Below, one piece after another: positions 13,176-21,000 of a stretch of 64,000 bases of DNA. Each line of letters starts with the position of its first letter. Position 1 is the first letter of the stretch. The notes beneath the pieces are model-generated. The model was given only the letters and a program-made list of their open reading frames with translations. It was not told where the DNA came from and made no database searches. The position numbers and the translations under genes are program-made. This stretch comes from Diplosphaera chodatii (taxonomy: Eukaryota; Chlorophyta; Trebouxiophyceae; Prasiolales; Stichococcaceae), in contig JAALGY010000023.1 of assembly GCA_032358165.1 (NCBI GenBank), forward strand, positions 1,488,001 through 1,552,000, in the 5' to 3' direction.

Positions 13176-13971
13176 TCAGCAGCAGTCAACGTCACCCTTC
13201 CACGCCCATGAACTTTCGTTCACGCCACCACAGGATGCATTCGCACTTGTGGGCTGCTGTTCCTGGCCATGGCCCAGTATCTGGCCCTTCTTGGCAAGAT
13301 GCTCCATACCCAGCCGCTTGGCCTCTTCCTGTGCACGCTGCTGGCGCTTTGCCTGCATCGAGCCCCGACTGTGTTGATTTCGTACGACGCTCATAGCCAG
13401 TTGCCAGGGCGCTTTGTTGATAACATTCTTGGGCGAAGCGACCCGAATGTTCATGATGTGCAGACGCTCGCGTCACCTTCTGCCGCTCGTTCTCCTCCAT
13501 CTGCTTTTGCAAGAAAGCGGCTGTCCCCTCACGCAACTTCGCCTGCTGCCGTTCCACAGCCAAACGGCGCTTCTCCTGCCACTCTGCCGCCGCTGCCGCA
13601 AGCATGGGCAAGAGGCATGACATGGTCAGACACTCGATGCGAAACATGGTCCTGCCAGCACTATATTGGATGCAGGAAACAGTGCATAGCCTGAGATAAC
13701 ACGTTTTACCTGCAGGGACCCCCTGCGACTGGCTTGGCTTCCAGTAATTGTAGTAGAGCCAGACCAGTGCTCCAGCAAGGCACAGCACGACCAGCCCGTA
13801 TCGATCTTTGTAATCCCAGAATGCTGCAAGGAACGCCTCCTTTGCACTCAGCGGCGTTGGCACCGGCGCCGCAGCCGGCCCTGGTGCAACGGTGTCTGCC
13901 GCCTGTGGCACGGGGCCATCAGGTGCCGCCACCCGCACCGGCTGGTCCATTGCAATCTGCGGTAGCGCCAT
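13176..13971 (-). CDS. Single-pass membrane protein with cytosolic coiled coil (possibly selenoprotein S/VIMP-like)
   Basis: Three exons, 13971-13710, 13592-13477 and 13352-13176, join in phase (184 residues). Residues 1-45 are Pro/Ala-rich. A transmembrane helix follows (YGLVVLCLAGALVWLYYNYW), then a charged coiled coil (EWQEKRRLAVERQQAKL, QKQMEENERQK, EEAKRLGMEHLAKKG). The order of short N-terminus, one helix and Arg/Glu/Gln-rich coiled coil is that of SelS/VIMP, the ER-membrane adaptor that recruits p97 in ERAD. The tail lacks the Gly-rich segment with selenocysteine, so the homology is tentative. The last exon may instead splice at a GTGACG donor near 13190 to a short exon further down. 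Divergent from the LYR gene. Confidence 0.6.
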
Positions 13972-14518
13972 GCTCGGCCGCGAAGAGCTGGGCTGCCTTT
14001 GTTTGCTTGCAGCGGCTCTTGTGCAAACACGGACTGGTCTGCGCTTGTGGTCCTGACAGCTTGCGATCTTAACGACACTGTGTGCGCGCTCGCAAGGTCA
14101 TGTGTACATCAGACAGGCGCTGCAGCGTGCCAGAGCGCCTGATCGCAGCTGCACGCCCTGTACGTCAGCTTGACGCTGTTGTCGATCACACAGCAACTGA
14201 GAGACGCACTTGCCACCGTCGAGCGCGACTGAACAGTCCCAGAACCTTGGCAAGCACTGTCGCCAGTTTCGCACTTGCACACACCAATGTGTGAAATCAA
14301 GACGCTGCCGACCTGTGCCTTGTGCAGCCTGATTCACGCGCATGTGAGCACCATCACTGAGCATCAATCATCAAGCCCTCCTGTCTTGCTTCATGCAAAC
14401 ACTGAATGATGTTTCCCGCCACTGGGAGAGCCGGCGGAGATCGCTGAACTGAGTGTCGCACAGCAAACCTTCGACACTAGCGCGCGATCTGGGGCGCAGA
14501 CGACGCCATCGCTGATCT
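13972..14518. promoter_or_regulatory. Bidirectional spacer between the membrane protein and the LYR gene
   Basis: About 545 bases between divergent starts, without coding signal. It should contain the promoter that serves LYR and, if the LYR/BIG pair is co-transcribed, BIG as well. No specific element was identified. Confidence 0.4.
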
Positions 14519-15059
14519 ATGAGCTCAACTGAACTGTACAGGCAGCTGCTGAAGGCGGCGAAGGCTTTCCCAGTGCGACCGGTGGGGCGAAAGATTGCCT
14601 ACAACTGCAGGGAGCTATTTGATTGGTACCGACAGGAGACACGGCCAGGGGAGCTGAAACGCCTGCATGACGACGCACAAGCAGCTCTGCGTGTGATCGA
14701 CTGGATGCGCGCGCTCCCAAAGGTGGTTTCAATTGCCTCCTTTCATACTTGCTTGCTCGGCTGGCACGTCGCCCGGCCATGGTGTTGATTGTCTTCAACG
14801 AACACGATGCTGCACAGTCATATGGAACCTCCACCGCCATGCCAAGTGATGGAGCTGGCGCTACAGCAACCCACTTCTCCGAGATCTTCGGTGTTCATCA
14901 GGCACCATCGGCTTCTTGCCATCGACGAGTGCCTGTGCCAGCTACCAAATCGACTGCGAAAGGGCGCAGGAAGCAATTATGTACAGCGTGCACATGCAGG
15001 CGGGCTTCGACAAGTTGTTTGAGCACTTCCTGCCCCACGCGCGGCCCAAGCGGCAGTGA
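14519..15059 (+). CDS. LYR-motif (Complex1_LYR) protein
   Basis: Small protein of the LYR superfamily, whose members bind the mitochondrial acyl carrier protein and assist Fe-S cluster delivery or assembly of respiratory complexes. Two exons, 14519-14722 and 14970-15059, join in phase 0 to give 97 residues. The L-Y-R tripeptide is at residues 6-8, followed by the amphipathic helices expected of the fold (KAAKAFPVRPVGRKIAYNCR, EAIMYSVHMQAGFDKLFEHF). Length is normal for the family; which member it is cannot be told. The start context is poor (T at -3). The stop lies only 21 bases before the BIG start codon on the same strand. An extra small exon inside the 247-base intron cannot be excluded. 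Confidence 0.78.
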
Positions 15060-15080
15060 GGGGCTGGACACCCCGCAGCG

Positions 15081-18000
15081 ATGGTCGCGGCCCAGCTCAT
15101 CGGCTCCGCGCTGGAGAAGATCTGCGACGCGGCCTCTGGGCGGAAGTACGCATCCCTGCGGCAGGAGACTAAGGTGCATCGAACAGGTTCATCTGGCATG
15201 CTAAACCGCTCACTGTCCCGTGAAAGACAGGTGTGAACCTACTCATCGCGATGAACCGTGTGGTTTATCAAACACAGCTGCATCCTGCAGGAGCTGCTGG
15301 ACCGGCTGCCGGAGCTCCTAGAGGACTATGGCGCCCAACCGCCGCAGCCAGGTGTGCAACAGCTGCTGCGCTTTACTGGAGTGCAGCTGGAAAAATGGCC
15401 TCGACCGCGGCGTCCATCTGACCGCTATCTGAACTGTTGTGCGCAGATGCCGAGCTCCCTGCGCACGAGTTGCAAGAGGATGGCCCTGCGGCACTGGAGA
15501 GCAGGCCGACAGCAGACTCGGTGGCGGCGGCGCACCTGCCAGTTGCCGGCGAGCACGCCCTGCCGGCAACCGAGTCGGACGCTGCGGAGGCAGTGATGCG
15601 GATAACAGGCCCCGATGAGCCCCCGCCGGCGCCCAGCCAGCGCGCGCTGTCAGAAGAGGCTGCACATAGTGAGTGCAGCTACAGCCAGTCACCAGGAGTG
15701 TGTAGATCACCTGCGTCAGCCTCACTGCTTGAGTGAGAAAACCTGCTGCAAGGTCACCTTGGCTGCAGCAAGGCAAGGAGGCGACTTCAGTAAGAAGCTC
15801 CTGCGTGTTGCTGCAGCGCTGCTTGAGGTTCTGCGGCAGGCCATCGAGACCCGGAAGACCGCACTGGTGGAGGTGGCTCTGGACTTGATACAGCGCCTTA
15901 TTGCACATCAGGCGCTGCAGGTGGGTCCGAAAGTGAAACGCCTCGCACTGCTCAAGCTGTCACAGCTACAAGGGTCTTGCATTCCTGTAGCCACTACATG
16001 ACGCGCTCCGCGTCTGCATTTCCAGGGGCGTGTGTATACTATCAACCATAAGCGGGATGCTGCCGCATCCAAACCCAAGCGGCGTGCGACGGCGGACGAG
16101 GATGACGATGAGGCTGCGGATGACAGCGAAGGGCTGCCGCCCCAGGTGCTGCTCAGCAAACTGCAGCAGTGAGGAGAGGACTGGGGCTGGACATACCAGG
16201 CGTGCAGTCAGCATGAGTGTCGCCAAGCAGGTTGCCCAAGGGTGTTTTGGTTTCATGTGCACAGGCGCAGGCCGTGGAGCTCCTGTGCAGATGTGATGAC
16301 ATTGCAGACGATGGGGTGGAGCTGCGTGTGCTGAAGGGCCTTCTGACAGCCGTCACATCCAACACATTGCATGTACATGGGCAGGCGCTGCTTCTGGTGA
16401 GGCGCATTGGTTGCAGAGCTTACTAATGCTGGTCAGCTGGTCTGCTCAGAAGTGGGACTGCACTGTTGTGGCCATCCCCCATGCATTGAGATACAGCGCA
16501 ATCTGCAGGCCGTGAGGACATGCTACAACATCTTCCTGCTGTCCAAGAGCGAAGTCAACCAGAACACCGCCAAGGCGTCGCTCACACAGATAGTCAATGT
16601 GGTGTTCCAGCGCATGGAGCACCACTCAGAAACGGTGTCATTGCCCCCGATCATTGTGACCGATGTGCTCGGGCTGCCACCTGTGGAATCGTCGTCTGTG
16701 TCGGCCTTCGTCCAGAACTTCCTCCAGGAGGTGTGCCCAGCTGCCTTCCTTATATGCTGTTTATGCTGCTCAGCCTGTGATACATGCACGCAGATCTGGA
16801 TAGCACCCTCATAGTTATTATGGACCCATACGTACCTGCTCATGGTCCGTAGGTGGTGTCCACTGTGGACCCCTTTGGCTTCTATACTACCAGCCTGGAG
16901 GAGGGATTGAACGACGCCTTTGTAAATGACGCATTTGGGCGTGTGAACAGCGCTGACCAGCCAGGTATGGAACAGGCAACATTGACGTAATCGTGACCGC
17001 CAAGTCTTTGACTGTGAGGCAGTCAAAGACTTGATGAAGTTCAAGTTTTCAGGTCAGGTCGAACAGCCTGGGTACATGCCCGCAGGGACACCACTGTCGC
17101 CGATGAGGCCAGTCCCTGCCGACGGCGAACACCCTGCCGCAGCAGCAGCGGAGCCGGCCACAGACGCCGCAGCCGCCGGCGCCGCCGCCGATGCAGACGC
17201 TCCAGCACCTGCTGCAGGTGCAGCAGAGCCAAAGAATGGGGCCGCCGGCGAGCCGGAGGCGAACGGTGTGCCCAGCGGGGCATCGACGCCGCGGCTGCAG
17301 CTGCCGGGCAGCGTCACCATCCCCACCACGGTGCAGCCGCTGATCCCCCCGCCGCTCGGCGCCCCTGGCGGCCAGCCGGTGGCGACAACGCCCCAGAGCG
17401 CGCGCACTCAGGCGCTGGACCCGGTGCTGCAGAAGGACGCCTTCCTGGTGTTCCGCGCGCTGTGCAAGCTGTCCATCAAGACGGCGGACGCGTCGTCTGG
17501 CACCGACCTCACTGCCACCCGCGGCAAGGTGCTTTGATGCTGCACATGAAGTGCATCGAGCATCATGCCAGCTGTTGCATGCACACCATTTGCTAGTTAT
17601 CTGAATGCTGCCTGACATGTAGCACGAACACACAGCGTGCAGACTGCAGTTCACCAGCGCACACAACACCTGCTGCTGCCGCAGGTGCTGGCGCTGGAGC
17701 TGCTGAAGGTGCTGCTGGAGAACAGCGGCCGGGTGTTTGCGTCCAGCGAGAAGTTCGCTGATGGCATCAAGCACTACCTGTGCCTCAGCCTGCTGAAGAA
17801 CTGCGCATCTGCCAACCCGCATGCGCTGCGCCTCAGCTGCTCCATCTTCCTGACGCTCATCTCCAAGTTCCGCCACTCCCTTAAGGCCGAGGTGCGCAAC
17901 AGCCCTCTGGAATCCTGTTGTTGTCAGAATCGAAGGCACTCCTGTTTCTACTGCTGACATGACCTGTCAGCGGGGTGTGCACTTTTGACAGCATGCTGGA

Positions 18001-21000
18001 GGTGCCGTCCCTTACAGCCTAACCTTGTGTGACGAATGTAGGTTGGCGTGTTCTTCCCCATGATCCTGCTGCGCTCCATTGAACCGCCGCCTGCTGGCTC
18101 AACACCACCAGGTCAAGGTCAGCACCTCGGCAGCAGCCTTGACATCCAAAAGACATCAAACACATACAGATTCAGCAAAGTTTGCTGAGGATTGATTGGG
18201 TAGAGCATGGAGCTTTTGTGGCCAGCAACCTGCAACATGTGTCATGCAGGGCCGCCGCCTGTGGATCTAGGCCAGCGGGGCGTCGTGCTGCGGTGCCTGG
18301 AGGCGCTCACTGGCGACGGCCAACTGCTGGTGAGGCCGACAGGCGCCCACTGGACATGGGATGGCCTGCAGTATTTGAGCCTCAGAACCTGATTGCAACC
18401 AAGCAGCTTTGAGTGTACGTCCTCTGATGGTGCGTCTGGTTGGCTGCAGGTCGACCTCTTTGTGAACTATGACTGCGACCTGGAGGGCGCCAACCTGTTT
18501 GAGCGCATGGTCACGGCGCTGGTGCGCATCGCGCAGACAGGCGCGTCGGCCGATGCGCCTGTGCCACAGCAGGAAGAGGAGCGCGCCCTTCGCGTGCTGG
18601 TGAGACATGATCGTACCCTGTTCTGTCAGTCGAGACTGCTGCAGCACCTGGAAGCACGGTGCCAGTAGCAGCTTTTGCAGCAACACAAGCACAAGCAGCG
18701 CTGGAGCTAGCACGCAGCACGAGCGAGTGTTGCATCACATTGCAGGCACTGCAGTGCTGCGTGAACATCCTGCGTTCGCTGGTCGAGTGGTACACAAAGA
18801 CGCAGCAGGCAGCCTCCCTGGCTGCCGCAGCCCTGGCAGCAGCGGCGGCGCCCGGCATCGACATTGTTGGGGATGACGCAGCCTCCGACTCCACTGCAGC
18901 AGGTGTGGCTTCTGTGCCTATTGCATGTCTATCGAAAAGCTGCATGCTATGCAGGGTCACAGGTGGCGGTTTGCAACGCCCAGGTTTCCTGCTGCACTGA
19001 CACAGTGTTCGTCACACGTGCAGACCACGGCGGCGAGGCTGCTGGTCCCGACAAGGAGGCAGCGTTGCTGGAGAGCTGGAAGGCCTACAAGACAGGCTTC
19101 CAGCAGGGCATTGCGCTGTTCAACAAGAAGCCCAAGAAGGGCATCGCCTTCATGCAGGAGCAGGTCCGCCAGCTGAGCATCCTTCGATTCCACCAGACGC
19201 AACAGTAGAGAACTTCTGTCATGAAAAGCCTGCCACAGTCCGCCTTTTACGAAGTGAGTGGTGCTGGTCTGCTCAGCAGATTCAGAATCACGCATGCCAA
19301 CAGAAATTTTATGTGCCTGGTGTTCCAGGGCATGCTGGGGTCGGAGCCTGCAGAGGTTGCCCAGTTCCTCACGAAGACCAGCGGTCTAGAGAAGTCGGTC
19401 ATCGGCGAGTACCTTGGCGAGCGCGAGGACACTGCGCTCAAGGTCATGCACGCCTATGTGGACGCCATGGACTTCACAGGCCTCGACTTCGATGCTGCTA
19501 TTCGGTGAGCACGACATGCGGGAGAACACGGCTGACTTCGTCATCGTCATTTGCCACGCTTACGTTCAATGCCGTCAAACCTGCAGTGTGTGCGGAGGGT
19601 GTCATTGAACGGTTAGCGGTGCCAAGCGTCTACATGCTGCTGAGCAGCAACTGGTGCTGCAGGCGGTACCTGGATGGCTTCCGCCTGCCGGGCGAGGCGC
19701 AGAAGATCGACCGCCTGATGGAGAAGTTTGCGGAGCGCTTCGTGCACTGCAACCCGGACACCTTCAAGTCTGCTGATGTCGCATACGTGCTGGCCTACTC
19801 CGTCATCATGCTCAACACTGATGCGCATAACCCCGGCGTGAAGAACAAGATGTCGAAGGAGGTACGGGCTGTACCATCAGTGATGCACTTGCCAGCCTCA
19901 TATGGCGTCGTATGGAGGGCGAATGTTGAGTGTCGCACAGTGCATACTCCTGCAGATGTCAACCCGCCACTTTATCGGTGCCATTGCAGGACTTCCTGCG
20001 CAACAACCGCGGCATCAATGATGGTGGCGACCTGCCCCAGGACTTCATGGAGGCTGTCTATGACCGCATTGTCAACAATGAGATCAAGATGAAGGTCGGT
20101 ATCCCCCGGATGCTGCTGTCGTTTGCCAACTGTCAGAGTTTACATCGTGTAGTCGTCAGACATCCACACCTTGGACCGTTGTGCTGTTTACACCTTACAC
20201 GGGTCAGTGCCACACCAAGGCAGAGTGCTTACCAGTGTCACTGCAACCCCTTGTGTCCTTATACTGCGCAGGACAATCCGACAGACATCTTGACAGCAAA
20301 GGAGCAGCAGGCCAAGGCAGCCAGCTGGATGGACAGCATTCTGTCGCTGATCCCGGGGCGCAAGCAGACGCACTCCAACGAACCCTCAGACGAGGCCATC
20401 CGCCGCACCCATGACTACCTCAGGTGCGCATCTAGATACAGCCTCGCATACAGCTTCAGACACTGTAGCTGTGCACAGATGAGGACTGGTTGCTTGGTGG
20501 TTGCGATACTAGCGCTAATGTTGTACTTCGATGTGCAGGGACCAGGCAAAGGGTGCCACATTCTTCAGTGCGGTGGAAGGCGAGACGGTGCGGCCAATGC
20601 TGGATGTGTCATGGGCGCCCTTCCTCGGCGCCTTTTCCGTCCTGTTCGAGGAGTTCCACGAGGGCAAGGTACACCTCATCGTTGGGACTCGCCACAGCAT
20701 TGCACCCACAGTTGCATTCTGGAAAGCTGACTTGATGCTTTCCTTGCTTTCAATGTTGTGAAGCGCCCCCTCTAGTGCCTGACTGCTGGCTATCGACATG
20801 CTGCGCAGACGGTGGGGCTGTGCCTGGCGGGCTTTGTATCCGCCATCCGCATCACCAGCCTGCTGGACATGGGCATGCTGCGCAACACGTGCGCATGTGA
20901 TATCCCTCCGCATCAGTCCTCAATGACCACACCACCGAGATGACATGGCAGCTGCAGTAGTAGCTGCCCGGGATGGTTCCCACTGAGTGCTCCACCATGA

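Follow-up and report, generated by a model that had tools for sequence, protein, structure and literature searches.

The LYR-family gene and the BIG gene that adjoin on the plus strand of the window, which is the whole 64,000-nucleotide stretch of DNA analysed here, are probably expressed from a bicistronic mRNA, with leaky scanning past LYR as the main route to BIG. The layout of the two reading frames, the exact gap between them, their start contexts and the splice sites are read directly from the DNA, and all are conserved in a second copy of the pair in the same genome; from these we infer a single transcript and leaky scanning. In the mechanism we propose, a promoter upstream of 14519 would drive LYR (87 aa) and BIG as one spliced mRNA. 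Ribosomes would scan from the cap and part of them would initiate at the weak LYR AUG; others would bypass this AUG and two weak internal ones and would initiate at the strong BIG AUG, 21 nt past the LYR stop. The features on which the argument turns are as follows.

About 13192-13971, minus: divergent open frame, whose product by eye has a charged tail and probably a single membrane span
14410..14518, plus: conserved block just 5' of LYR; 85% identity between copies (ungapped), against 70% for 13972-14409
14519, plus: LYR start ATG (ORF 1 start)
14519..14722, plus: LYR exon 1; PF05347 match, 91.7% identical between copies
14667..14669, plus: internal AUG in frame +1, T at -3; its 9-codon ORF stops short of BIG
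14705..14707, plus: internal AUG in the LYR frame, T at -3; its 25-codon ORF shares the LYR stop
14723..14999, plus: LYR intron, GT-AG, 277 nt; conserved donor, acceptor from the gene finder and homolog P0004
15000..15059, plus: LYR exon 2, AGFDKLFEHFLPHARPKRQ and stop TGA; two-copy gene finder, homolog P0004
15057-15059, plus: LYR stop TGA, the same in the second copy
15060..15080, plus: inter-ORF spacer, 21 nt, a multiple of 3; 19/21 identical between copies without indel
15081, plus: BIG start ATG (ORF 2 start)
15081..15173, plus: BIG exon 1, start context GCG-ATG-G; gene finder, N-terminal alignment with P0012
15174..26243, plus: remainder of the BIG gene (an ARF-GEF), up to where it was confidently modelled; exon models, domains in order
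19308..20085, plus: Sec7 domain (catalytic part of the ARF-GEF), interrupted by introns; PF01369 pieces at C21:1507308-1508085

The two genes and their junction

The coordinates given for the junction in the first-pass annotation, with the LYR stop at 15059 and the BIG ATG at 15081, 21 nt apart on the same strand, are exact, and the stop and the ATG lie in one frame. Its description of a weak upstream and a strong downstream start is likewise borne out: the LYR AUG stands in the context GATCT-ATG-A, with T at -3 and A at +4, and the BIG AUG in GCAGCG-ATG-G, with G at -3 and +4. ORF 1 measures 264 nt including the stop. The plus strand carries no TGTAA from 14519 to 16920, the flanking occurrences being at 13809 and 16921, and the earlier remark that none lies between LYR and BIG therefore holds. 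The conserved block just 5' of LYR is a probable promoter or 5' UTR of the presumed shared transcript, as judged from the two copies; the nearest ATG upstream of LYR is at -110 in the window copy and at -84 in the second copy. The divergent open frame shares a 547-bp upstream region with LYR, and in a Pfam search it matched no family over cut-off.

The splice structure of LYR bears on how many AUGs a scanning ribosome would have to pass. A simple, self-written gene finder, which works on the two copies and takes no protein input, picks LYR exons at 14519-14722 and 15000-15059 and the BIG start at 15081. The homolog P0004, which was found by sequence search and is apparently a spliced prediction, continues after the same point with EGFEKLFEQFLHQAQPKRT, matching the AGFDKLFEHFLPHARPKRQ encoded from 15000. 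This comparative evidence places the acceptor at 15000 and supports an LYR protein of 87 aa encoded by these two exons. The donor can be followed more widely. After a conserved LPx motif the next residue is V (GTN) in 38 of the 39 homologs that could be parsed by pattern, and the 39th is P0004; such a V is what read-through of a GT donor gives, so the position of the donor is conserved. Five of the 44 homologs were not parsed, and by eye V occupies the position in P0050, P0051 and P0059 and not in P0060 or P0061.

Several other LYR models were considered and rejected. An acceptor at 14970, giving 97 aa, is ruled out by P0004 and the gene finder, which both point to 15000, and as coding sequence the segment 14970-14999 is disfavoured by its codons, which differ between the copies mostly by amino-acid changes. 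Termination inside the intron at 14788, giving an 89-aa ORF, is ruled out by the conserved donor after LPx. A direct splice from LYR exon 1 into BIG fails as well: with acceptor 15079 the BIG frame is lost, and a single-gene model, when forced, has to resort to a 1-nt exon. The gene finder does fuse LYR and BIG when the gene-start penalty is set to 30 or 60 instead of 7, skipping the stop by way of such a 1-nt exon, a result that counts against a bicistron.

The choice of acceptor changes the number of internal AUGs in the LYR mRNA from four, with 14970, to two, with 15000. The first-pass annotation had regarded internal ATGs as a difficulty for leaky scanning; two of these remain, both with T at -3, but the barrier is smaller than claimed because the other two drop out with the acceptor at 15000.

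The identity of the first protein is established at the level of the family. With PF05347 (Complex1_LYR), for which the curated cut-off is 24.8 bits, it scores 26.7 bits in the 97-aa form and 27 bits in the genome search; its closest solved relative is LYRM4, at an E value of only 0.005, from which a subfamily assignment does not follow. A family search of the genome gave four further, different LYR-family matches besides the two copies of the pair. SDHAF3 is an LYR-type protein, and PF13233, which we take to be the SDHAF3 family, had no match in the genome, nor in any control.

For the second gene the gene finder returned three models, and the 1492-aa protein was joined by hand; the model is weak around 17892-19633 and past about 26243. 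The joined protein contains DCB, HUS, Sec7 and HDS domains in that order, all above cut-off, with 256.6 bits for Sec7 (PF01369), and its DCB region, entered as a query without linkers, matches the BIG1 structures 5ee5 and 5j5c. Assignment to the BIG-type large ARF-GEFs is thus well supported by the predicted domains. The best protein match among 7996 scored candidates is P0012 (ABBQ32_001093), from Trebouxia sp. C0010, which begins with MTLTPQQVIGSCLDKIVDGASGRKYSKLK, two residues ahead of BIG here, and this alignment supports the BIG ATG at 15081. Together with the TGTAA pattern, this best match points to a green alga, probably a trebouxiophyte, as the source of the DNA. The earlier view that the pair would couple a mitochondrial assembly factor with a Golgi ARF-GEF is supported as regards the BIG-type ARF-GEF identity of its second member; the first was called a mitochondrial assembly factor on the strength of LYR-family membership, and the LYR-family protein of the pair is probably mitochondrial.

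A second, diverged copy of the pair

In the 85.6-Mb assembly, which comprises 55 contigs, the window belongs to contig C21. A search of this genome with the protein encoded by LYR exon 1 yielded two scored candidates, the one in the window and one on contig C24 (94% identical), and both sit in the pair arrangement, each being followed by a Sec7 gene, which favours the bicistronic reading. The pair region aligns with C24 over about 8 kb at 79% identity and over a further 1.8 kb at 77%. Despite this divergence both AUGs and their contexts are intact in the C24 copy, as are the TGA and the splice dinucleotides of LYR, and the gap there is again exactly 21 nt, all in favour of a bicistron. TGTAA is missing from that copy, too, over LYR and the first 2500 nt after the BIG ATG. 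No indel separates the copies between 14960 and 15200. The colinear conservation on which we rely is thus seen between two copies in one assembly, not in another named species.

Both reading frames are conserved at the protein level. LYR shows 13 synonymous and 6 nonsynonymous codon changes in 87 codons (10 and 4 in the 68 codons of exon 1), and BIG exons 1-10 show 116 and 24 in 584 (5 and 0 in exon 1). The first 20 BIG codons contain one change; 8% of the 20-codon windows in exons 1-10 are as low, and the conservation of this segment is not striking.

The duplication extends well beyond the pair. Most of the window (3-63840) is matched in the same order by C24:1192001-1262000, at 74-79% identity, and several other families are likewise paired on different contigs, as if the assembly held two diverged subgenomes, through hybrid origin or an old duplication. 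A scan for LYR-BIG loci that covered prokaryotic genome contigs and viral contigs only found no locus. The LYR homolog P0053 and the Volvox africanus BIG protein P0016 come from contigs of almost the same length (1087295 and 1087118), possibly the same scaffold in two assemblies.

Comparison with known green-algal bicistrons

Green-algal bicistronic loci were reportedly described by Gallaher in 2021, and bicistrons of other gene pairs in these algae are already known; LYR-BIG would most likely add a pair. Among the publications accessible to the search none joined bicistronic, brefeldin A-inhibited and green alga, and the pair may stand in published supplementary locus lists.

The available text of Duenas 2025 (PMC11892635) gives, for bicistrons of the trebouxiophyte Auxenochlorella, a median ORF 1 of 291 nt and a median inter-ORF distance of 40 nt, the latter compared with 2,518 nt between monocistronic colinear genes of the same alga and 183 nt between the ORFs of Chlamydomonas bicistrons. 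The same text describes weak ORF 1 starts and an observed/expected AUG ratio of 0.48 ahead of ORF 2, and its reporter mutants speak for leaky scanning. LYR-BIG resembles these bicistrons in its short ORF 1, its gap of tens of nt, its weak-then-stronger starts, its colinearity and its conservation. For the base rate of same-strand gaps we use the published one; gene finding over the whole window gave overlapping genes on both strands, and its output was left unused.

There are also differences. LYR-BIG is a bicistron predicted from DNA sequence, and BIG, as ORF 2, greatly exceeds the median of 1,185 nt for Auxenochlorella (PMC11892635, available text). AUGs before BIG are fewer than expected, which favours a bicistron, but their depletion is weak, which counts against the simple reading. 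Over ORF 1 and the gap, without the 5' UTR, the window copy has 2 AUGs where 3.27 are expected (0.61) and the second copy 3 where 3.62 are expected (0.83), one internal AUG there having A at -3; the published medians in the text available, 0.49 and 0.48, are lower and include the 5' UTR, so that the measures differ somewhat.

LYR-motif proteins are named among conserved green-algal bicistrons in a 2024 preprint (PMC11291117), the available main text of which contains no word beginning ARF or Sec7. The TOM22-SDHAF3 bicistron of Chlamydomonas and Auxenochlorella, described in the same available text, is like LYR-BIG in involving a mitochondrial assembly factor. There, however, SDHAF3 is ORF 2 and its partner is mitochondrial, whereas here LYR is ORF 1 and its partner is of Golgi type.

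A further comparison is provided by CDC26-TTM3, a deeply conserved bicistron according to the available text of Duenas 2025 (PMC11892635). In the present genome CDC26 and CYTH (TTM3) adjoin on one strand in two copies, at C46:2000923-2001767 and C49:2171080-2171935. The ORF bounds at this locus were read by eye together with the gene finder, which at one setting merged the two genes and at another put in false exons upstream. In both copies the CDC26 start has T at -3, the TTM3 start has A at -3 and G at +4, and TGTAA is absent between the two, all of which favours the bicistronic reading of LYR-BIG. The control pair thus shares with LYR-BIG a T at -3 in ORF 1, a purine at -3 with G at +4 in ORF 2, an intron in ORF 1 and retention in both copies. 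It differs in its gap, which is 115 nt in both copies (aligned without indels) and not a multiple of 3, and in its ORF 1 intron, which is not unusually conserved, with an identity of 0.70 beside neighbouring introns at 0.70, 0.70, 0.68 and 0.46.

How much weight the missing TGTAA can bear was judged from light-harvesting genes of the same genome. UGUAA lies near about 60% of chlorophyte 3' ends in the available text of Wodniok 2007 (PMC1868727). We used 21 of 30 light-harvesting loci, those with a match to the domain end and an open frame, taking the first in-frame stop; several are paired copies and not independent. TGTAA occurs within 600 nt past the stop in 12 of the 21, in ten of these at 150-215 nt, as against 2 of 10 wrong-strand frames, and the signal seems to be in use in this genome. 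The other nine lack it over the same distance, which counts against the bicistronic reading, and because of them its absence after LYR is mild evidence for a bicistron. At the first in-frame ATG of these genes (20 of the 21; putative starts, some in paired copies) the -3 base is A in 11, G in 8, C in 1 and T in none, whereas the LYR start has T there, which favours the bicistronic reading.

The conserved LYR intron and other routes to BIG

The main result against a simple bicistron is the conservation of the LYR intron. It is 78.5% identical between the copies, with two gap columns, and 31 BIG introns, a set that leaves out those in the poorly modelled 17892-19633, average 65.1% (sd 6.1, maximum 80.4%). 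The LYR intron outranks 30 of the 31, and it comes first when gaps are counted, at 0.78, the top BIG intron then being at 0.77. This tells against the simple reading because an embedded BIG promoter would look so; a conserved first intron would look so too. An intronic RNA gene was rejected, no Rfam family reaching its gathering score; the one weak hit, to sR32, lies on the minus strand over the junction (16 bits against a cut-off of 40, E 0.22).

As the main alternative, the locus might consist of two overlapping units, with a BIG promoter inside the LYR intron, a BIG cap site at about 14997-15070 and LYR polyadenylated within the 5' part of BIG. Besides the length and unusual conservation of the intron, such an arrangement would have a clean leader for the BIG mRNA, there being no ATG from 14997 to 15080, and in CDC26, from a known bicistron, the intron does not stand out from those around it in conservation. 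It would, however, need an LYR 3' end within BIG, where TGTAA is absent in both copies, and conservation is also possible in a first intron that lies close to the true promoter. The noncoding block just 5' of LYR is moreover even more conserved (0.85). On balance we regard two such units as unlikely.

A bicistronic mRNA does not by itself specify how BIG is translated. Reinitiation, or stop-start coupling after termination on LYR, could take the place of leaky scanning as the main route, and the shortness of the gap speaks for it, together with the strong conservation of the spacer, whose 19 of 21 identities are matched by 40 of 3311 overlapping intron 21-mers. Initiation at the AUG at 14705 would in addition yield a 25-codon ORF with the same stop. 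But an ORF of 87 codons is long for reinitiation, and the RNA fold of the junction in the window copy is no better than that of shuffled sequences (86 nt, z = 0.40; 27 nt, z = -0.79). A strengthened ORF 1 context, moreover, lowers ORF 2 output in Auxenochlorella mutants (PMC11892635, available text). Reinitiation as the main route therefore seems to us improbable.

Occasional readthrough of the LYR TGA, giving an LYR-BIG fusion alongside the separate proteins, would suit the shared frame of stop and start, the spacer that reads GAGHPAA in both copies with both differences at third positions and silent in the BIG frame, and the fusion made by the heavily penalised gene finder, but that fusion skipped the stop through the 1-nt exon, codon degeneracy suggests, by a hand estimate, that chance alone gives two silent changes about 1 time in 11, the stop is conserved in the second copy and the annotated Trebouxia BIG homolog starts just two residues further out, all of which makes readthrough very unlikely. 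Hardly less of a long shot is the idea that, besides leaky scanning, the in-frame TGA might be read through at a regulated rate, with the spacer as its trace, so that a fusion would tie the LYR protein to the Golgi ARF-GEF.

A bicistronic LYR-BIG mRNA translated by leaky scanning remains our preferred reading. The original proposal of such a bicistron is consistent with the anatomy of the locus, its conservation in the second copy, the start contexts, the missing TGTAA after LYR and the known bicistron in the same genome; the conserved LYR intron is the point at which it leaves room for a BIG promoter. The locus also illustrates how a wrong acceptor in a gene model overstates the AUG barrier to leaky scanning. 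If the bicistron is confirmed, a pair made of an LYR-family protein and a housekeeping ARF-GEF would join those of the green algae, and its layout would have been kept through the divergence of two copies in one genome. Whether odd pairings of this kind reflect co-regulation or a mere compact layout would then become testable.
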